Positions 3,287 through 12,314 of a stretch of DNA of 22,994 bases are shown in pieces; position 1 is the stretch's first letter; every line of letters begins with the position of its first letter. The stretch is from a virus. The stretch lies in IMG/VR virus record IMGVR_UViG_3300043543_000655, positions 1 to 22,994 of that record. One strand, written 5' to 3'. A program made the translations under genes and the position numbers. Below the pieces are notes generated by a model. That model had not been told where the DNA came from and did no database searches. It saw only the letters and a program-made list of their open reading frames with translations.

Positions 3287-3481
3287 TCAGGCGGCCTCCG
3301 GGGTAGGGGGTTTGCGGGGCGGCTTACGGGGCGGTTTGGTTTCCGTCTCCGGCACAGGGGGAGCCTGCACTTCCTCTAACACCGTCCCCAAAAAAATACG
3401 CTCCGACTCCGGCACCTCCAGCGTCTCATCCGGCAACCAAATCCGACCGCCAAACATAAACGGCGTAATAACCCTAACCAT
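3287..3481 (-). CDS. Small structural-region protein, paralogue of its neighbour
   Basis: A 64-aa protein. ATG at 3481 overlaps the capsid stop (TGATG); a GTG one codon upstream is also possible. The N-terminal 38 residues resemble those of the next protein (VITPFMFGGRIWL against VIPFSFDRLYEVG), followed by a Pro/Lys-rich tail with the repeat RKPPRKPP. Position matches Mu gp35. It probably accompanies the capsid, but nothing in the sequence fixes a function. Confidence 0.65.
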   Translation of the reverse strand: MVRVITPFMFGGRIWLPDETLEVPESERIFLGTVLEEVQAPPVPETETKPPRKPPRKPPTPEAA

Positions 3482-4431
3482 CACGCCACCACCCCCTTCG
3501 CCAGGAATCCAGCAATATTAGAAGCAATTACAGGAGCACGTTCATACGTCACACCGTAGTACCAGGTCTTGGTGTTGTTGTCGTAATACGGCTCCTCCAC
3601 CAGCGGATGCCCCACCATCGTGTAGGTGTAGCCAAAGCTAGGCTCCTCCATCGTGGTCGCCTGCTGAGGGACATACGCCAGGATCACATCCTTGCCCCAA
3701 ATATCAACAAACGTCGGAGTATTATTGGGTCCAGTATTTGAGGAGTACACGCCCCGCCCTACAGCAAAAACTTCCACATCAAACAAGCGGGCGAACATCG
3801 CTTCCGTCATCGGCTCTCCGGACGTGTACTTCACCCGGTCACGCATTTTGTCGTTAGTCTGCAAGGCTCGGTAAACGCCCGGACCAACAACCATAACGTT
3901 GATGTCAGCCCCAATTTTTCCCCGCACAATTTCCCGCCAATTATTCACGGCTTGCACTGGGTCAACCGTATTCACACTCCAACGGTCTGCCGACGCAACC
4001 GTAACCGAGTTACCCGTAGCGTAGTTCGCCGCAGTCGTCGCTAACTGCGCCGCATCATACTCCAATTGGCGATTCAAAACCCGCATCGCCATCATCACCG
4101 CCCGTTCCGCCAAGTCAATCCCCGGCGAAACCTGAGCATCCCGTTGATGTTCCCTAGGGACAGGTGCCTCAATCGCATCGCAAACCAGCGAGTATTGTTT
4201 CCCCGTATAGAAAAAATTAGCCCTGACCGTCGCCGCCCCAGGTGCCCGTTTCGTTTGATACAGCCGAAACGCCTCATCCCCAAACTCCAGGATTTGCCCC
4301 CCCGAGAGCGTGACCGGCACCGGCGGGAACAGAAGATTCCACACAAACTGGGTGTCCTTATAGCCCTGAACCCTCTCCGTGAGGACTGGGTTAACTACCC
4401 GAACTTGGCTCAGTGTTTGATTCGTCGTCAT
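3481..4431 (-). CDS. Major capsid protein
   Basis: A 316-aa protein; ATG at 4431 is preceded by GGAGG with a five-base gap, and another ATG lies one codon upstream. It sits directly after the decoration protein gene, as major capsid genes do in Mu-like phages. Features consistent with an HK97-fold subunit are an N-terminal arm (TLSQVRVVNPVLTERVQGYK), a segment with YTGKQYSLVCDAIEAPVP, a spine helix (GIDLAERAVMMAMRVLNRQ), and a substrate-like P/A-domain part (INVMVVGPGVYRALQTNDK). The C-terminal part has FGYTYTMVGHPLVEEPYYD. The match is of the VpGp/major capsid type seen in phage heads without a separate T gene. Family assignment by synteny and pattern. Confidence 0.8.
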   Translation of the reverse strand: MTTNQTLSQVRVVNPVLTERVQGYKDTQFVWNLLFPPVPVTLSGGQILEFGDEAFRLYQTKRAPGAATVRANFFYTGKQYSLVCDAIEAPVPREHQRDAQVSPGIDLAERAVMMAMRVLNRQLEYDAAQLATTAANYATGNSVTVASADRWSVNTVDPVQAVNNWREIVRGKIGADINVMVVGPGVYRALQTNDKMRDRVKYTSGEPMTEAMFARLFDVEVFAVGRGVYSSNTGPNNTPTFVDIWGKDVILAYVPQQATTMEEPSFGYTYTMVGHPLVEEPYYDNNTKTWYYGVTYERAPVIASNIAGFLAKGVVA

Positions 4432-4440
4432 CATTCCCTC

Positions 4441-5172
4441 CTATGCGGTTACAGTAGCGGCGGCAGTAGGCGTAATCAAAACCTTGATTGGAGCAGGATT
4501 GGTGGTCGTAGTTACTGCCTCTAAGGCAATAGCCACAGCCCAATCCGTTGAAGAATTAAACACACATTTAACCAGCCTCCCGTCAGCGGTTGTTTTCAGC
4601 GAATCCCCCGCCACAATCGTTTGGGAAGCCGCCAGGGAAGCAGTAATTTCACCCCCAGTTTGTATTGCAACTTCTGTACCTGCGCTAACTGTTTTAGTTG
4701 CAAAACCTACAATTTTTTGTCCTGGGTTACCTGTACCACCTGCTGTTGCATGAACCCCTGCGGCTGTTACAGCCCGTCCTTCCGTTACACCACCTGTTCC
4801 TGCTGTTAATTTAATTTGAGGCTGAACAACATTAATTGGTGTTCCAGGATAAAAAAATACAGGAATCAATTGTCCCGCCGCCGTTGCCGCCTTGAGTGCA
4901 ACCCCGACCGTTGAACCAGCAATCCGGTTAATTACCCGCCCGGAAGCATCAGATTCCAGCAGTCCGAACTCGGTAACCGCCGCCCCGGTTTCCACGTTAA
5001 TCACGCCATAGGTGTCAACGGTAAAACGCTCGCCATTATCAACACTGGTTCGAGCTACCCCAAACGCAGTTTCGCCTGCCCCCGTGTGCACACCACTGGC
5101 TTTAACCATTCGGTGTTTGGTAATGTTGGCAGTCGCCTTAATCGTCAACGGCAATAGCTGAATTTCAGACAT
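4441..5172 (-). CDS. Capsid decoration protein, tandem DUF2190-like repeats
   Basis: A 243-aa protein from ATG 5172 (AGGAGG six bases upstream; the start overlaps the upstream TGA). It is Ala/Thr/Gly/Val-rich and has two similar beta-rich halves. The first runs about residues 8-110 (TANITKHRMVKASGVHTGAG, then TAFGVARTSVDNGE). The second runs about 120-240 (TEGRAVTAAGVHATAGGTG, then IVGFATKTVSAGTEV). This is the layout of DUF2190 capsid fibre or decoration proteins, here duplicated. The AT-richer codon use around 4640-4860 differs somewhat from its neighbours. It probably coats the capsid surface. The stop is TAG, which matters for interpreting the amber codon in the terminase. Confidence 0.7.
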   Translation of the reverse strand: MSEIQLLPLTIKATANITKHRMVKASGVHTGAGETAFGVARTSVDNGERFTVDTYGVINVETGAAVTEFGLLESDASGRVINRIAGSTVGVALKAATAAGQLIPVFFYPGTPINVVQPQIKLTAGTGGVTEGRAVTAAGVHATAGGTGNPGQKIVGFATKTVSAGTEVAIQTGGEITASLAASQTIVAGDSLKTTADGRLVKCVFNSSTDWAVAIALEAVTTTTNPAPIKVLITPTAAATVTA

Positions 5173-6029
5173 CAGGAGCCTCCTACAGCGAGATAAGCGG
5201 TTTTCAAATCAACCCCCGGATTTTGAAGCTGATATTTCTTAGCCTTTTGATAAAGTTCCAATTCCTTAGGATTAGCTTGATAGCCAGGGGCAATGCCAAA
5301 CGCCACCGGCTCCGGTTCAACAGGCTTAGAAATCTCATCCCCAAACGACACCGCCAGCGGCAAATTTTGGATTAAATCCCGGAACAAATCGAGCGCAGGC
5401 TTGGAGCTATCCCCAAACGCCACCGGCTCTGGCACCTGCCCCAACACTCTCATCAAACTCAGGGCAACATCCTTCAGGTGGGGCGGCAGGCGGAACCCAT
5501 CAGACCCAAACGCCACCTGTTCCAGCCATTGGCGGTTTTGAGCCTCAGCAATTTGCGCCTTCAGTTTGGCAATTTCCAAATCCTTCGGGTCAGGCGGCGG
5601 CGGGGACTTTTCCTTTTCCCCAAACTGCACCGGCTGAGTTTCAAACACCACCCCATCCTCCCCAAACGCAGGCTGGAGCAAATCCCGCACCCTGGGGGAC
5701 TCTACAAACGCTAGGTGGTCAGCGGCCCATTGCCCCGGCGTGGGATTGTTGGGATGATCCGGCTGGAATAGTTGAATGCTCAAACCAAAACCCGCCACCT
5801 GTTCCGCCAGGTCAGCGGGCACATCCTTGGGCACCACGAGCAGGTGATCCCCGACCACCGCCGCATCCGCCACCTCCGTTTTGACGACCCCACCATCGTG
5901 TCCGATTTGGACAGGGCGACCTATGAGCGTTTGACGGATGCTCTCCAGCGCCTCACGGTCAAAAGTCCAGGTGCGGTTTTGATTATCCGTGTGCGTGCCA
6001 GCGGTGAAAGCGTGCCAGGGTTTAACCAT
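5172..6029 (-). CDS. Mu I-like head maturation protease/scaffold
   Basis: A 285-aa protein beginning at ATG 6029 with no clear Shine-Dalgarno site; TGA lies five codons upstream in frame, so no longer start exists. Residues 1-110 resemble the N-terminal protease part of Mu I (PWHAFTAGTHTDNQNRTWTF, VQIGHDGGVV with His44 as a candidate catalytic His). From about 140 it is scaffold-like: a Pro-rich linker, a short coiled coil (DLEIAKLKAQIAEAQNRQWL) and a Lys/Gln-rich C-terminus. Six copies of an [A/Q/S]FG motif (about residues 121, 135, 173, 204, 228, 243), mostly VAFG, are spread through the scaffold part. The protein should direct prohead assembly and then be processed. The position before decoration and capsid genes fits. 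Confidence 0.75.
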   Translation of the reverse strand: MVKPWHAFTAGTHTDNQNRTWTFDREALESIRQTLIGRPVQIGHDGGVVKTEVADAAVVGDHLLVVPKDVPADLAEQVAGFGLSIQLFQPDHPNNPTPGQWAADHLAFVESPRVRDLLQPAFGEDGVVFETQPVQFGEKEKSPPPPDPKDLEIAKLKAQIAEAQNRQWLEQVAFGSDGFRLPPHLKDVALSLMRVLGQVPEPVAFGDSSKPALDLFRDLIQNLPLAVSFGDEISKPVEPEPVAFGIAPGYQANPKELELYQKAKKYQLQNPGVDLKTAYLAVGGS

Positions 6030-6102: not shown

Positions 6103-6546
6103 CTATCCCAACAACTCCCGGCGAATCAACTCCACAATCCGTCGCTCCCGTTCCGGTGTCAGCCCGAGAAACTCCCGTTTTGGAATGCCCCTGGCGGGGT
6201 CGCCCTGGTTGTGCGTCCGAGCATAAATGACGTTCGTTCCGACCGCCACCTGATTCCCAGAAACCCGATAGGCAATCGAACCCCGCAACCGCCCCGTATC
6301 CGTCAAAATTTTGCGCCGTTTCCGATAGACAGCCTCTTGCTTAAACCCAGGCGTCCGTCCAAACCGCCGCCTAAACAGCGTCTTAGCCTGCAACTTCAGC
6401 GGCGGCCAAGGCGTTCCATCCGGCGCACGTTCGTTCCGAAAACAATTATCTGTTTCCAATAGCAAATATTCCCCCACCGCCACCAACGCCGCCCGGAGAC
6501 GCTCAGGAGCCAACCGCCTAGAAAGATTCAAACGCACCCTAGCCAT
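6103..6546 (-). CDS. Mu G-like virion morphogenesis protein (tail completion)
   Basis: A 147-aa protein. ATG 6546 is chosen because GGAGG lies nine bases upstream; an ATG at 6555 is directly abutted by that site. The start overlaps the end of the MuF gene. Typical family features are an N-terminal helix region (RRLAPERLRAALVAVGEYLL), then the conserved RAPDGTPWPPL segment, and after a basic stretch TDTGRLRGSIAYRV and VGTNVIYARTHNQG, the hallmark end of phage virion morphogenesis proteins. The C-terminus has PKREFLGLTPERERRIVELI. In Mu, G joins tail to head. Stop is TAG. Confidence 0.85.
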   Translation of the reverse strand: MARVRLNLSRRLAPERLRAALVAVGEYLLLETDNCFRNERAPDGTPWPPLKLQAKTLFRRRFGRTPGFKQEAVYRKRRKILTDTGRLRGSIAYRVSGNQVAVGTNVIYARTHNQGDPARGIPKREFLGLTPERERRIVELIRRELLG

Positions 6547-8998
6547 CCAAATCATCCTCCCGCTTCGCAGAGAAATCTTGCAGATTTTTCAATTCTTCAG
6601 CCAAGCCTTGAATGAAATTATCTTTAGAACGTCCAAAAATTACCTGTTTTGTGAGCTTTTCCACCGTCTTTGCCCCGACCCCCTTGACCCTGCGTTGCAC
6701 ATCCGCCGGATTCACAAACGGTTGTCGTTGCGCCTCCTGATAAATTTTAGTCGCCACAGACTTGGATATATTTAACTTTTTCTGTAAATCTTCCACAGAT
6801 GCGGAATTAATGTCAATTATTTCAGCTATTTCGGCTAAAGCCTTAAGTTTTTCCACCGTTTTAGGACCAATATCAGGCACCTTGAGCAAATCATCAAGCG
6901 AATTAATTTGTCCCCCTTCAGCCAAAAATTTCCGCAAACTCGCCACCTGGCGGGTATTCAACGGAGTTAACGTTAACAATTCCTGATTGGTAGCAGTCAG
7001 GATATTCAAATCCCCAACAAACACCCCAGGCTTTTGTCTCGCCTGTTCCAAATTGGCAATAATTCGGTCAATCTCCTGAGGGTCAATAGGCGAATCCAAT
7101 TCCGCCTGAGTCACAGCCCCGACCTCATTTCTAATCCTGACAATTTCCCCCGGCGGGTCTCGCTTTGCCAATGGTCCACCTTTAACCCCAGGGGGCAAAG
7201 ACAGCAAAGACGCAGGCCCAGGAGGCGGTTCCGGCGGTTTTGGGGCGAAATCCACATCAATTATCCCATCTGGGGGTGTAGGGGGTTTTCTCCTAGACCC
7301 CGTAGAGGGCGTATCATCAACTTGTTTAAGGAATTCATTCAAATCATCCACTGTGGCCTGCACCACGTCCCGGCGTTGCGGCCAAGTCAGTTGACCAGGT
7401 CGCTCTCCCATGCCACCGTGATAGACATCTTCAAAAAATCTATCTAAGCGATTTGGATCGGGAATGCGAAGGAACTGTAAGTAATCCTTATTACTGAAAT
7501 ATCGCCGATAACGTGTAGATTTTCCAAGCTGTGGTGGCGACCCCACGCCGCCCCAGGTCACAATATCATCAATTTCAATCCCTAACTCCTTGAAAATCCC
7601 TGCCACACCCTCAGATATATTTGCCCCAGAAGAATAACCTACTAAATTTATTTTTGCCACATCTCCAGTTTCCAAAAAATCGGCAATAATTTGCTGAGCT
7701 ACAGATTGTGTAGTTCTTCCATGATTCAAAAAAGTTTGGTATAAAATCGTATCCCATATATTTTTTACCCTTTTACTGGGGTTATTGATGGGTACTATTT
7801 CCCCTTTTAAGCCCAGCGCCCGCAAATTTTGCGCTATTTTTTGTGCCCCTTCCCCAAACTCATCTCCAAGCCCAGAGATGACATAAGTCCGTTGAGTCGT
7901 TTTAGGATTAGCCAATGCTCTTTTTATTTGATCAATGGAATCCTCCCCAAAAATATTGATTATTTCCTTAGCCCCTTGCTTGTGAAACTCCCGTTGAACT
8001 GCCTTGCCAGCAGAAGTAACCAATGCCCCGGAAAAAGCGATCTGCGCCGCATCCCCAGCCAATCCATAATCATCAAACGCCCAACCCGTCGCTAAACTCA
8101 GCCCAAAATTAAAAACTTTCATTTCGATCAGCTGAGCAATAGCCACCTTTGGGTCCGGGCTGAGACGGTCAAAATTGAGAGCCGCCTGCACCGCCGTCTG
8201 CAACGTTGAAATCACCCACGCCCTGGACACATAGCGCAACGGACGAGCGATATTCCCCGGCACCTTATCCCAGACCGCCAACTGGGACAACAGGGGCAAC
8301 TTTGCAGTCTGACGCTCCACCTCCGCTGTTAGGTTTTCCGCCCCAGGGATTACCTCAAACCCAGGGTCAACCCCCACCGGCACCCGCACCCGCCGCCCCT
8401 GGGCATCCGTATATTCGTAGAACTCATCATCAGGAACCTTGCTAACTTTTGCCTTATCCAAAGACAAAATCTTGCACTTGCACCCAAAGCCCGCCGGGGG
8501 AAATTTATTTCTAAACCAAGGGTGATTCGCCGGGAGCGTCACCCCATCCCAAGCTAAATGCTGTTTACGGGGATAAATTGAATCCCCATGCCGCCACATC
8601 CAATAAGGTCGAGCTTTGAGAGTAGCAGGGTCCGTTAATTGCCCATAACGCCCCGCCCCGTAAGCCTGGCGCAGATTTTGGTTCAAAATTAATTCCGTCC
8701 GCCAGGTACGATTGCCCCGATAGCTCCAGCCCGCCCTCGCCACCTCCCGATCAAAATCCTGCCGAAACTCCTGCAAAGTCGTCCCCTGCACCAACGCCTT
8801 ATCCACCGCCTGCCTTAGAGATTCCAGCAGTTCCGCCTGCATGACCCCCGCCACCGCAAATGCCCTATCCCGCTGTTGGGCAGTTAAATCCCGATAAGAC
8901 GCCGTAGGCAGATTCACTTTGGAACGAAAATACTCAATTGCCTCATCAAACGGCAGAGATTGCCAATCCGAACGAGCATCAACCCGAAAACTAGTCAC
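6539..8998 (-). CDS. MuF minor head protein with hydrolase-like and HhH modules
   Basis: An 819-aa protein starting at GTG 8998, overlapping the portal stop. Residues 1-185 form a MuF head-morphogenesis domain (ending RHGDSIYPRKQHLAWDGV, WFRNKFPPAGFGCKCKIL). Residues about 260-560 resemble an alpha/beta hydrolase: a strand TYVISGLGDEFGEG near 371, a nucleophile elbow GYSSG with Ser456, and a candidate His527 in VYHGG. A Pro-rich linker (565-615) leads to tandem helix-hairpin-helix motifs (705-790: VPDIGPKTVEKLKALAE, VKGVGAKTVEKLTK). A typical MuF of Mu (gp30) is about 430 aa, so roughly half is extra. DNA for the added part is clearly AT-richer. MuF proteins enter the head and can be carried into the new host; known MuF fusions include toxins. 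The enzyme activity here is inferred only. Confidence 0.8.
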   Translation of the reverse strand: MTSFRVDARSDWQSLPFDEAIEYFRSKVNLPTASYRDLTAQQRDRAFAVAGVMQAELLESLRQAVDKALVQGTTLQEFRQDFDREVARAGWSYRGNRTWRTELILNQNLRQAYGAGRYGQLTDPATLKARPYWMWRHGDSIYPRKQHLAWDGVTLPANHPWFRNKFPPAGFGCKCKILSLDKAKVSKVPDDEFYEYTDAQGRRVRVPVGVDPGFEVIPGAENLTAEVERQTAKLPLLSQLAVWDKVPGNIARPLRYVSRAWVISTLQTAVQAALNFDRLSPDPKVAIAQLIEMKVFNFGLSLATGWAFDDYGLAGDAAQIAFSGALVTSAGKAVQREFHKQGAKEIINIFGEDSIDQIKRALANPKTTQRTYVISGLGDEFGEGAQKIAQNLRALGLKGEIVPINNPSKRVKNIWDTILYQTFLNHGRTTQSVAQQIIADFLETGDVAKINLVGYSSGANISEGVAGIFKELGIEIDDIVTWGGVGSPPQLGKSTRYRRYFSNKDYLQFLRIPDPNRLDRFFEDVYHGGMGERPGQLTWPQRRDVVQATVDDLNEFLKQVDDTPSTGSRRKPPTPPDGIIDVDFAPKPPEPPPGPASLLSLPPGVKGGPLAKRDPPGEIVRIRNEVGAVTQAELDSPIDPQEIDRIIANLEQARQKPGVFVGDLNILTATNQELLTLTPLNTRQVASLRKFLAEGGQINSLDDLLKVPDIGPKTVEKLKALAEIAEIIDINSASVEDLQKKLNISKSVATKIYQEAQRQPFVNPADVQRRVKGVGAKTVEKLTKQVIFGRSKDNFIQGLAEELKNLQDFSAKREDDLDG

Positions 8999-10508
8999 CC
9001 TCTAAAACCTCAGAACGCCCCACCAAATCCGCCAGCACCAACGCCTGCGCCAACTGAGCCGCCACCTCTTGCACCGACAACTGAGGATAAATTTCCGCCA
9101 ACTTGCCCCGGAACTCCACCAAATCCTGAGAATCCTGCAACAACGCTTCAATCTCCCGCACCCAATCCCCCAACCCAGCCAGCACCCCAGGACGCAGCAT
9201 TTGAGCAATTTTCCCAACCGCATCCATCTCCCCAAACGCCACCGGCGGTTTTTCTTGCGGCAGTTCCAGCGGTTCATTCCGCTCCAACCAACCCTCCCCG
9301 TAGGTACTGCGGATGTATTCCAGGGTTGGTTTGAAGCCCATGCTATAGATTTTAACGTCCCGCTCCGCCAGCAGACCCCTATCCTCCGGCGTTTCAAAAT
9401 CCCTAGAAATAATAGGGACTGCAACATCCTCACCAAAATTAAACCGGCTTAACCACGCCACCGGACCCCGGCAAAACGAACCATAGATCAAATCGTTATC
9501 AGCGTGGACTAACTCCTCTTTGACCTGCGCCCGTTCCTGCTCATTGCCCAACTTACCCTCAGTCCCCTCAGTAGTGGCAGTTTGTCCCAAAATTACTTTG
9601 GCAATAGCTTTTTCCAACTGTGAATAAAGCTGATCAAATTCGGGTCCCGCCCCAGAATTGCTATTCAAAAATTCAATCAACCAGCCCTCCGGGAGAACCG
9701 CACCACCATTGGATTTCAGAGCTTCCAGGGTGCTGAGCAATTTTGATTGTTGGCTCGGGTCCGTGCCCGCCGGGAACCGCCCCAGCAGCATTCCCCCCGC
9801 CTTCTTCTCCAAAAAACTCAACCACTCCGACATATTCCCCCGTTTGAACAACACCAGCCAGTACAGCCAGTGCGCCAGCCCAATCCCATACGGGTCATCG
9901 CAATGGTCTGCCCCAGACGAATAATGCCAGAATCGCCCAGGATATTCCGCCGTGAGATTAATCCCCCGAACATAATCCGTCGGGGTCAGCAGGCGCAAAT
10001 TCCCCTGCGGGTCAAAACGGAACCGCCGCCGGTCACGCACCAAAACCCGATCCAACTGGACATAATTCCCATCCCGAACGTAGGTCAACTCGGCGACAGA
10101 ATAGCCGTAAAACACCCCCCAATGTGCCAACTCCGACCAGCCATCCCAATCCCCAGCCAGCACCCGCTCCGCCCAAAAATCCCGTGCCATCTCATCAACC
10201 TTGGAGACTGCCCGTCCCCTGGGCAGACCCACGTCCACCCGCATTGGCAGACTCAACAGAGCGTGAGTCCGTTGTTGCCAACACGCCTTCACCTGCGGGT
10301 CGGACCTCACCTTCGCATAAATATCCAGAGCATTCCAGCCCGCCCCCCCTTGAGAACGCAGGATATGATCCTGGTGCAGGAGCAAATCCGTGTAATACGC
10401 CCGGGAAACATCCAGCGACCGCCCACCCTGGTCAAGCAGCGGCGAGACCTCCGGCTGGTTAACCGGCGGCTTACGCCCCCACGCCTTGAGAATCCCTAAC
10501 CAGTCCAC
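8991..10508 (-). CDS. Portal protein, Mu gp29-like (DUF935)
   Basis: A 505-aa protein starting at GTG 10508, with GGGAGG six bases upstream; it overlaps the terminase stop. The order terminase-portal-MuF is as in Mu. Recognisable DUF935 pieces are DPQVKACWQQRTHALLSLPM, AHWGVFYGYSVAELTY, FRFDPQGNLRLLT, and GIGLAHWLYWLVLFKRGNMS; then GGMLLGRFPAG and KVILGQTATTEG. Portals form the dodecameric ring at one capsid vertex for DNA passage and tail joining. A single VAFG motif lies in the C-terminal extension (KPPVAFGEMD), shared with the protease/scaffold. The C-terminal about 80 residues are helical and Leu/Ala-rich. Stop is TAG. Confidence 0.85.
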   Translation of the reverse strand: MDWLGILKAWGRKPPVNQPEVSPLLDQGGRSLDVSRAYYTDLLLHQDHILRSQGGAGWNALDIYAKVRSDPQVKACWQQRTHALLSLPMRVDVGLPRGRAVSKVDEMARDFWAERVLAGDWDGWSELAHWGVFYGYSVAELTYVRDGNYVQLDRVLVRDRRRFRFDPQGNLRLLTPTDYVRGINLTAEYPGRFWHYSSGADHCDDPYGIGLAHWLYWLVLFKRGNMSEWLSFLEKKAGGMLLGRFPAGTDPSQQSKLLSTLEALKSNGGAVLPEGWLIEFLNSNSGAGPEFDQLYSQLEKAIAKVILGQTATTEGTEGKLGNEQERAQVKEELVHADNDLIYGSFCRGPVAWLSRFNFGEDVAVPIISRDFETPEDRGLLAERDVKIYSMGFKPTLEYIRSTYGEGWLERNEPLELPQEKPPVAFGEMDAVGKIAQMLRPGVLAGLGDWVREIEALLQDSQDLVEFRGKLAEIYPQLSVQEVAAQLAQALVLADLVGRSEVLEGD

Positions 10509-11824
10509 CGCAACCCTCCCCTAGGCATTGCCAACTCCCCCCACGCCAGCGCCGAAACCCTAGGGCGCAACCCCAACACCTGCTCAATCGGCGCCACCGG
10601 ATTATCCGCCCCATGCACCGCCAACGCCAACGCCCAGAAATAATCCCCGTGTCCAACCTCATCCCGATCCGCATCAAACCGGGGGTTCCCCGCACTGGTT
10701 CTAGTTTGCCGAATCGAGTGGAGAGATTCCCTGATGTCCCGGTCAATCGGGATTCTAATTTGGCGATCCTCAAATTTTCGCTTCAGCGTCACCGCCAAAT
10801 CCTGCTTCACCGCCCCAGTAAACGTCACCGCCTCCACCCGGTACTGCCCATGTCTGCGCTGCGCCTCCTCCGCCACCGGCATCCCCAACCCCGTCTCATC
10901 CAAACACGCCCGCCGCACCCGATAGCGAGCCAACACCCCATCCAACGCCGCCAACTGTTCCGCAAACGGCACCCGCAACAACGGAAGCACCTCCCGCGTC
11001 CAGAACAAATCCCCAATTTTTTCCACCACTTTTTCCACCACCCAAATCACTGTTAAATCCCTTCTACGCCCCACGTCCATCCCAACATAGCAATCCCCGC
11101 CTTGATAATTTCCGAGGCATTCTGGAGCCTCACAGGCGGCAATCAAGTCATAATCCAACCAAGCCCCCGCCTCATCCAGCCACTGCAGTTCATACTCCTG
11201 CGCCCAGGCATCCGGGTCATTCTACGCCCTTCTTAATTGCTCAATATCCCTGGGCAAGCCCTGCGCCACCGCCTGGTAAATATCACACCGGTGCTTGCTC
11301 CACACCGGGTCATCCGTCGTCATTAGCTCGTAAAACTTATTGCCCTTCCCATTCGGCGTAGAAATCACCCGCAGAGAGTGCCCCGCCGAAATCACCGGGA
11401 ACAACGCCGCCCAGATTTTCCGGGAATCCTGGTGGAACGCAAACTCATCCAGCAGGACGCTCGCACTAAACCCCCGAGCCGTGTCCGGGTTAGCAGGCAG
11501 AGCCGTGATCCTGGACCCATTTGGGAGCCGCACCTCCAGCGCATTTTCCTGGGCAGAAATCGGATAATTCAAATCCTCATACGCCACCTTAATCACCGCC
11601 AAATGCTTTTTAACCCCCTCATCCATCGCCTCCTTCGCCTGCCGCTCCCCCCGGGACAAGATCACCCAGCGGCGGGGAGATTCCAGAGCAGACAGCACAA
11701 TTTCCAAAGTCGCAACAAACGTCTTTCCAGTCTGCCTCGCAAACATCCCCACCTTAAATCGGGACTTATCCTCCAGCCACCGGCGTTGATAAGGATACAG
11801 CAGAGGTTCAAGAGACGAGACCAT
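10496..11824 (-). pseudogene. Terminase large subunit (Mu gp28-like) with in-frame amber codon
   Basis: One reading frame of 443 codons encodes the large terminase, but codon 201 is TAG (11224-11222). ATG 11824 has GGAGG six bases upstream. The N-terminal part has Walker A ARQTGKT (29-35) and Walker B VLLDE (123-127), plus STPNGKGNKFYEL, so it is the packaging ATPase. After the TAG, NDPDAWAQEYELQWLDEA continues the family pattern without a gap. The nuclease part has VGMDVGRRRDLTV (Asp250), LDETGLG and DEVGHGDYFWALALA. No good start serves the second half; its best candidate is a TTG without a clear ribosome site. Other genes here use TAG as an ordinary stop, so codon reassignment is unlikely. 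A TTG or similar sense codon probably mutated, or the read is wrong. Suppression cannot be excluded. Confidence 0.85.
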
Positions 11825-12314
11825 AAATTTCCTCCCGCACAATCCGTAGAGTTTCCGGGTCCAGATTCCGCTTGGGAGCCTCCCGCTCCAGTTTTATCAA
11901 CTTATCCTTAACCTCCTGCTGATAGCGTTTTACCGCCACCGTCCCCCGGCTCGTCTCCACCACCGCCCGACTGATCAGCGCCAACTCCTTCGGGGTCAAT
12001 TCCTCGCCCTTCTCCAACTGCAACTGGAACAGCAACGACTGATTCAATTGCAAAGACGCTTCCGAAACCGCCGCCTCATCATCCGCAAAAACCTGTTTCA
12101 TTTCCTGCGCCTGCCGGGTAGCGAGCCGCAACAACTGCACCTTATCCTCAAACTTCTGCCCAAAACGGTGAACCGACGACTTGCTAATCTCGTAGCCTTG
12201 TTCCTTCAGCCAATCCGCCAACTGCTGATAGCCCGAAAAACCCTGCCGCTCCAGCCGTTGCTCTAGCTCAATCCTGATTGCCTCTGGCAGTAGCTCAACC
12301 TTGGACGGCAGCAT
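11808..12314 (-). CDS. Mu gp27-like protein (DUF3486), likely terminase small subunit
   Basis: A 168-aa protein. ATG 12314 follows TGAGG with a five-base gap and lies 8 bp after the preceding stop; longer frames lack a site. It begins MLPSKVELLPEAIRIELEQR, followed by SGYQQLADWLKEQGYEISKS and SVHRFGQKFEDKVQLL, the classical DUF3486/gp27 helix-turn-helix N-terminus. The rest is a long helix/coiled-coil region ending APKRNLDPETLRIVREEIYG. Directly before the terminase large subunit, it is expected to bind phage DNA ends and start packaging. Its end overlaps the terminase start by 17 bp. Confidence 0.8.
   Translation of the reverse strand: MLPSKVELLPEAIRIELEQRLERQGFSGYQQLADWLKEQGYEISKSSVHRFGQKFEDKVQLLRLATRQAQEMKQVFADDEAAVSEASLQLNQSLLFQLQLEKGEELTPKELALISRAVVETSRGTVAVKRYQQEVKDKLIKLEREAPKRNLDPETLRIVREEIYGLVS

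Follow-up and report, generated by a model that had tools for sequence, protein, structure and literature searches.

The herpesvirus scaffold has two cleavage sites, of which one follows the protease and the other precedes the C-terminal tail, and the P1 residue of the herpesvirus protease is alanine. The homology of the phage prohead protease to the herpesvirus protease has already been published (Cheng et al. 2004, as cited in PMC10052503). The SPN3US protease has multiple AXE sites, including in the portal (PMC10052503). In the virion structure of phage Mu, the last 124 of the 512 residues of the portal gp29 are missing, and the authors infer C-terminal cleavage by protease I (PMC11915804); for portal cleavage by this protease, the same article cites Grimaud 1996. 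For decades, it has been inferred that protease I processes the Mu portal. Our literature search found neither a description of the motif analyzed here nor a published consensus for the cut sites of this protease family.

The window analyzed in this study is a stretch of 22,994 nucleotides from a viral record (IMG/VR IMGVR_UViG_3300043543_000655). Profile matches show that it contains the head genes of a Mu-like phage on the minus strand, in the order portal, MuF-like minor head protein, protein for tail completion, protease/scaffold, cement, and major head protein (Table 1). The order terminase, portal, MuF, tail completion, protease, cement, and capsid is the same as in the phrog_976 Mu-type head modules compared. 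Two separate ORFs (11222–11842 and 10496–11158, minus strand) correspond to the large subunit of the terminase, whose gene may be split, frameshifted, or decayed.

Repeats in the protease/scaffold and portal proteins of the window

The initial annotation described a VAFG-like motif that is repeated in the protease/scaffold protein and present once in the portal. Our scan agrees exactly with this description. Six [VP]-x-F-G copies are located within residues 120–245 of the protease/scaffold protein and one at residues 423–426 of the portal, and the spacings between the scaffold Phe positions (F122, F136, F174, F205, F229, and F244) are 14, 38, 31, 24, and 15 residues, as had been stated. Six strict copies in the 173-residue scaffold part compare with a mean of 0.82 in shuffles (p = 4e-5). 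The portal copy alone is not significant (p = 0.28); it gains significance because F425 is near-invariant, being kept in at least 90% of 27 portals. Across the portals, the copy lies about 85 residues from the C-terminus. The VIFG stretch in the C-terminus of the MuF-like protein of the window was left out of the motif copies (p = 0.11). The C-terminal part of the same protein contains a serine-hydrolase-like GYSSG stretch in its middle and helix–hairpin–helix domains (HHH_3 and HHH_5) near its end, a combination that is unusual for a minor head protein.

The near-identical DNA that had been pointed out at several sites is present, with CCAAACGCCACCGGC occurring at positions 5296, 5413, and 9232. 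It carries little evidential weight because the codon preference of the phage (GTG 0.58, GCG 0.54, TTT 0.78, GGG 0.54, and CCG 0.51) largely predicts the same letters, and a recent duplication read from the DNA-level identity was set aside on this ground. The identity of 15 bases at the three PVAFG sites is somewhat above what codon bias alone suggests, and small-scale DNA copying between the portal and protease genes is possible.

The protease/scaffold protein consists of a protease domain (residues 1–117), a linker (118–147), a coiled coil (148–172), helical modules (183–221), a second linker (223–251), and C-tail helices (254–281). In its AlphaFold model (pLDDT 84), the linker that follows the protease domain is of low confidence and contains copies 1 and 2. 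Copy 3 is placed where the coiled coil ends, copy 4 separates helical modules, and copies 5 and 6 are found around the low-confidence linker that precedes the C-tail helices. A sequence search of the PDB gave no relative of the protease with a solved structure. In a Foldseek search with the protease model, the top 40 PDB hits were all herpesvirus proteases, with a best probability of 1.00 and a best E value of 8e-3, which is above 0.001. His44, Ser84, and His105 are invariant in 40 of 40 relatives. The portal was assigned to Portal_Mu with a score of 268 bits against the curated cut-off of 23.9. Its AlphaFold model comprises a core extending to about residue 403, a low-confidence linker (residues 418–428; pLDDT <50), and a helical C-terminal domain (residues 430–504), and the motif sits in the linker between the core and the helical domain.

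Table 1. Features of the window. Positions are those of the whole stretch; arrows mark the candidate scissile bond; counts give the relatives in which the motif Phe is kept.
Feature	Positions	Strand	Description
Major head protein	3481..4434	(-)	phrog_1005 E=2.6e-84
Head maturation protease/scaffold	5172..6029	(-)	285 aa; phrog_976 E=1.2e-21, residues 2-133
Motif copy 1, PAFG↓ED	5661-5672	(-)	Right after protease domain, release-site position; F kept in 38/40; low-confidence linker
Candidate internal start, GTG 127/128	5646..5651	(-)	Behind strong Shine-Dalgarno GGGGAGGA, formed by codons of motif copy 1
Motif copy 2, VQFG↓EK	5619-5630	(-)	F kept in 37/40; pLDDT <50
Motif copy 3, VAFG↓SD	5505-5516	(-)	Coiled-coil end; F kept in 35/40
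Motif copy 4, VAFG↓DS	5412-5423	(-)	Between two helical modules, predicted short strand; F 39/40, +1 A/G/S 39/40
Motif copy 5, VSFG↓DE	5340-5351	(-)	Helical-module end; F kept in 31/40
Motif copy 6, VAFG↓IA	5295-5306	(-)	Just before C-terminal tail, maturation-site position; F 26/29 ungapped; surrounding linker pLDDT <50
MuF-like minor head protein	6539..8998	(-)	819 aa; VIFG at residues 786-789
Portal protein, Portal_Mu	8991..10508	(-)	505 aa; PF06074 E=1.4e-79
Portal motif copy, PVAFG↓EM	9231-9242	(-)	VAFG = residues 423-426; linker before C-terminal helical domain

An in-frame ATG with a Shine–Dalgarno sequence follows the protease domain in 24 of 49 family members versus 5 of 93 control stretches, and the window has a candidate GTG start at this place. 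These sequence features suggest that a scaffold-only product may also be made from an internal start, as for gene Z of Mu, which is an internally started scaffold in the Mu record and a precedent for such a product.

Conservation and dialects of the motif in related phages

Single-protein scans of viral and genome contigs found no close relatives of the protease of the window, and profiles were therefore used to gather relatives. The first four relatives compared (Stenotrophomonas Bhz63, Rhizobium RR1-B, Klebsiella KP12, and Nodularia 2AV2) contain the same kind of repeat, mostly as FAE, FSE, or FAD. The motif, for which the initial annotation had named lack of conservation in relatives as a refutation, is kept in relatives with the same proteins, and the Phe of each scaffold copy is individually conserved in most of the 40 relatives at an overall identity of ~24–32%.

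At the sequence level, VAFG belongs, as one of several dialects, to the five-residue motif [VAILP]-x-F-[AGS]-[ED]. Position −2 is Val, Ala, Pro, Ile, or Leu, position −1 is Glu, Ser, Ala, or Asp, and Phe is followed by Ala (54%), Gly (25%), or Ser (20%) and then by Glu (50%), Asp (16%), or Ala (14%). The information is confined to these five residues, and the flanks are near background. Phe is replaced by Leu in the Mu sequences and by Leu or Met in those of some relatives.

The over-representation of the motif was evaluated with protease loci gathered from viral contigs. When all tripeptides in 45 non-redundant proteases were ranked without selection on the motif, FAE was the most over-represented (105 seen versus 8.8 expected), and FGE and FSE were also in the top five, alongside words of the fold or active site such as YGW and GHP. 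Since the protease domain has motif-like copies of which some (PxFAE[LM] near residues 80–100 and LxFSEA near residues 22–30) are homologous fold positions, this domain was left out and the count was repeated in the scaffold part only. In the scaffold parts of 44 non-redundant relatives, the core [VAILP]-x-F-[AGS] has 260 copies versus 50 ± 6.6 expected, with a maximum of 71 in 1000 shuffles. In the scaffold part, Ala, Gly, or Ser comes directly after two-thirds of the Phe residues, compared with one-third in the protease domain.

Among the head proteins, F[AGS][ED] is enriched 8.6-fold in the protease family (domain copies included), 2.5-fold in the portals (41 copies versus 16 expected), and about 1.5-fold in MuF, and it is near or below expectation in the capsid, tail-completion, and terminase proteins and in 649 other proteins. 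The major head protein family has three strict copies versus five expected. The start of the Mu capsid protein is confirmed by sequencing in the Mu record, which fits the absence of the motif in capsid proteins. An additional copy is found within the first 32 residues in 4 of 27 portals (P = 0.005) and 5 of 26 MuF proteins (P = 0.0006). The small cement and gp36 families have five and nine copies versus 2.8 and 4.6 expected, respectively. Near the head genes of Nodularia phage 2AV2, gp10 and gp23 (L250 385–1794 and L004 2798–4414) contain the single copies EVDFAAA and VEFSAPT, and these two proteins may be further clients of the protease.

Judging from the compared proteins, the motif changes in step in the protease and the portal across many related phages. 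The window is the only phage in the set in which all scaffold copies are FG, and it is also the only one with FG[EDQ] in the portal tail. In one relative (L265), Gln follows the small residue in both proteins (PAFSQ and IEFAQ in the protease; AEFAQ in the portal), and in another (L011), Phe is lost in both (VTLAE and VEMAE; portal IELAA). In phage Mu, I/Z contains VAALSA, IAALSA, and AVLSA, and the portal contains EAALSA; the corresponding words of JBD30 are AALT for the protease and AALAT for the portal. Nodularia 2AV2 combines protease repeats with one NIGFSEID in the portal tail; in Synechococcus S-CBWM1, repeats occur in the protease and none was found in the portal tail. In a set thinned by portal identity and with Fisher tests that ignore shared descent, F[AGS][EDQ] was found in the portal tail of 26 of 31 phages with the protease family of the window versus 5 of 42 with the Mu-I family (p = 4e-10), and a Mu-style Leu motif in the portal tail went together with at least three copies in the protease (4/7 versus 5/65, p = 0.004). 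The protease profiles of Mu and of the family of the window had no hits in common in the panel. Six Mu-I-type proteases (L208, L211, L216, L218, L221, and L229) are without either dialect and share the words VVANS/VVANK and VVPxGK, which may be a dialect of their own.

Proposed cleavage role of the motif and rival roles

Because the motif changes in step in the protease and the portal, the sequences suggest that it is an unrecognized cutting address of the head-maturing enzyme. We consider it fairly probable that the repeats are recognition and cut sites of the phage's own head maturation protease. The initial annotation had proposed VAFG as such a site, with docking to the capsid as the other choice. 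The cleavage part is supported by the module-boundary positions, the protease–portal covariation, the assemblin-like protease, and the Mu virion portal without its C-terminus; VAFG itself turned out to be only the local form of a wider code, and docking stays as the main rival.

In the proposed scheme, an assemblin-like enzyme with the His44–Ser84–His105 triad would form the N-terminal part of the motif-bearing polypeptide, and this protease plus scaffold polypeptide would assemble inside the prohead. The enzyme would cut its own chain behind the protease domain, where the coiled coil ends, between the helical modules, and immediately ahead of the C-terminal tail. Cutting at every site would, by computation, yield pieces of about 13.4, 4.4, 4.3, 3.3, and 2.6 kDa and two of 1.6 kDa. 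The portal would be cut once in the linker 418–428; by computation, a cut after G426 would free the last ~80 residues, corresponding to 8.5 kDa (from 56.7 to 48.1 kDa). These cuts would let the scaffold pieces leave and the DNA enter. Cleavage would take place at the motif copies, and the scissile bond is probably the one after the small residue, F-[AGS]↓x, because this is the best-conserved position after Phe and assemblin prefers a small P1.

Several points speak against cleavage. The absence of the Mu portal tail from the cryo-EM map can also be explained by disorder. The Foldseek E values lie above 0.001, and SPN3US-type prohead proteases cut after Glu, a residue that only two of the six scaffold copies have in place. 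In the model of the protease/scaffold protein, copy 4 appears in a predicted ordered short hairpin, and copies 3–5 would flank short helices, not long linkers. Matching dialects would also be expected if another partner (capsid or chaperone) recognized the motif, and related phages have dialects in common by descent.

As a docking peptide, a role that we regard as possible but unlikely, the scaffold copies and the single portal and MuF copies would fit into a groove on the inside of the major capsid protein, or into one on another scaffold molecule, and tie the portal and the minor head protein into the prohead, with cleavage occurring elsewhere. Multivalent short motifs in disordered linkers fit this role, as does the need to recruit the portal and MuF to the prohead; the capsid protein itself is without the motif, as expected of a receptor, and the copy at F205 is the one in the predicted ordered hairpin. 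However, docking needs no bracketing of the scaffold modules, which here includes copies that immediately follow the protease domain and immediately precede the C-tail, and the portal copy lies between the core and the helical domain, near the truncation of the Mu portal in the virion model. By general analogy with the herpesvirus scaffold, the C-tail helices would be a better candidate for capsid binding. The two functions may also be combined, if the uncut motif docks the scaffold and the portal and the protease then destroys it, so that cutting releases the interaction. The evidence for cleavage and that for docking would both apply, and the combination would explain why one short protein retains six or more sites, as well as the conserved hydrophobic residue at −2 and Phe, but no data require two functions, and we judge the combination improbable.

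Neutral repetition, arising from DNA-level duplications or from a compositional habit without function, would account for the three 15-base sites with identical DNA, but codon bias is responsible for much of this identity. The individual conservation of each Phe described above also stands against it. Furthermore, the copies of a single relative vary between A/G/S and between E/D/A, and therefore the amino acids, rather than the DNA, are kept. The conservation found across such distant relatives speaks strongly against neutral repetition, to which we give very little credence.

The cleavage reading can be extended to a head-address code, in which a lineage-specific five-residue tag alone would send a protein into the prohead and have it cut there, and the dialects FG, FAE, FAQ, LAE, and LSA would act as lock and key between the protease and all its clients, including the portal, MuF, and perhaps cargo. 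We put this extension forward as a tentative idea that is rather unlikely to hold. If the motif is the cut site, the cleavage maps of many phage heads would be readable from sequence, and the co-changing dialects provide a natural series for tests of protease specificity.

Comparison with known systems

The systems of the T4 gp21/SPN3US gp245 type resemble the window in that several sites of one short motif occur in propeptides and the portal has a site as well. In SPN3US, gp245 cleaves on the C-terminal side of Glu, whereas the scaffold copies of the window have Glu, Glu, Ser, Asp, Asp, and Ile after the small residue. A strict Glu-terminated site of the T4/phiKZ type (X-X-Glu↓) was rejected, with Glu in place in only two of these six copies.

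The similarity to herpesvirus assemblin/pUL26 includes the His–Ser–His triad, the succession of protease, linker, scaffold, linker, and C-tail, and a small residue at the putative P1, and may extend to the predicted fold (Foldseek). The layout of the window is that of the herpesvirus scaffold with extra sites in between, and this parallel in the release and maturation sites would be directly testable if the motif is the cut site. In contrast to assemblin, which cuts Ala↓Ser, the family of the window usually has Glu or Asp after Ala, Gly, or Ser, and it has an extra conserved Phe; the Ala↓Ser pattern was not found in the motif family, in which Glu, Asp, and Ala predominate at this position.

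Homologous proteases with repeated F-[AGS]-[ED] are present in Stenotrophomonas Bhz63, Rhizobium RR1-B, Klebsiella KP12, Nodularia 2AV2, and Synechococcus S-CBWM1, and like the window, Bhz63, KP12, and 2AV2 have at least one motif copy in the portal tail. These five relatives differ from the window in having mostly FAE or FSE instead of FG and longer linkers, and the genomes of 2AV2 and S-CBWM1 are large (139 kb).

Gene I/Z and the portal gp29 of Mu share with the window the gene order, the fusion of the protease to the scaffold, a C-tail after the last copy, and scaffold repeats combined with one copy in the portal tail. The Mu portal motif, AALSA at residues 427–431, lies beyond the last modeled residue, and a cut there would, by computation, remove 9.1 kDa. 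Mu differs in having L-[ST]-A where the phage of the window has F-G.
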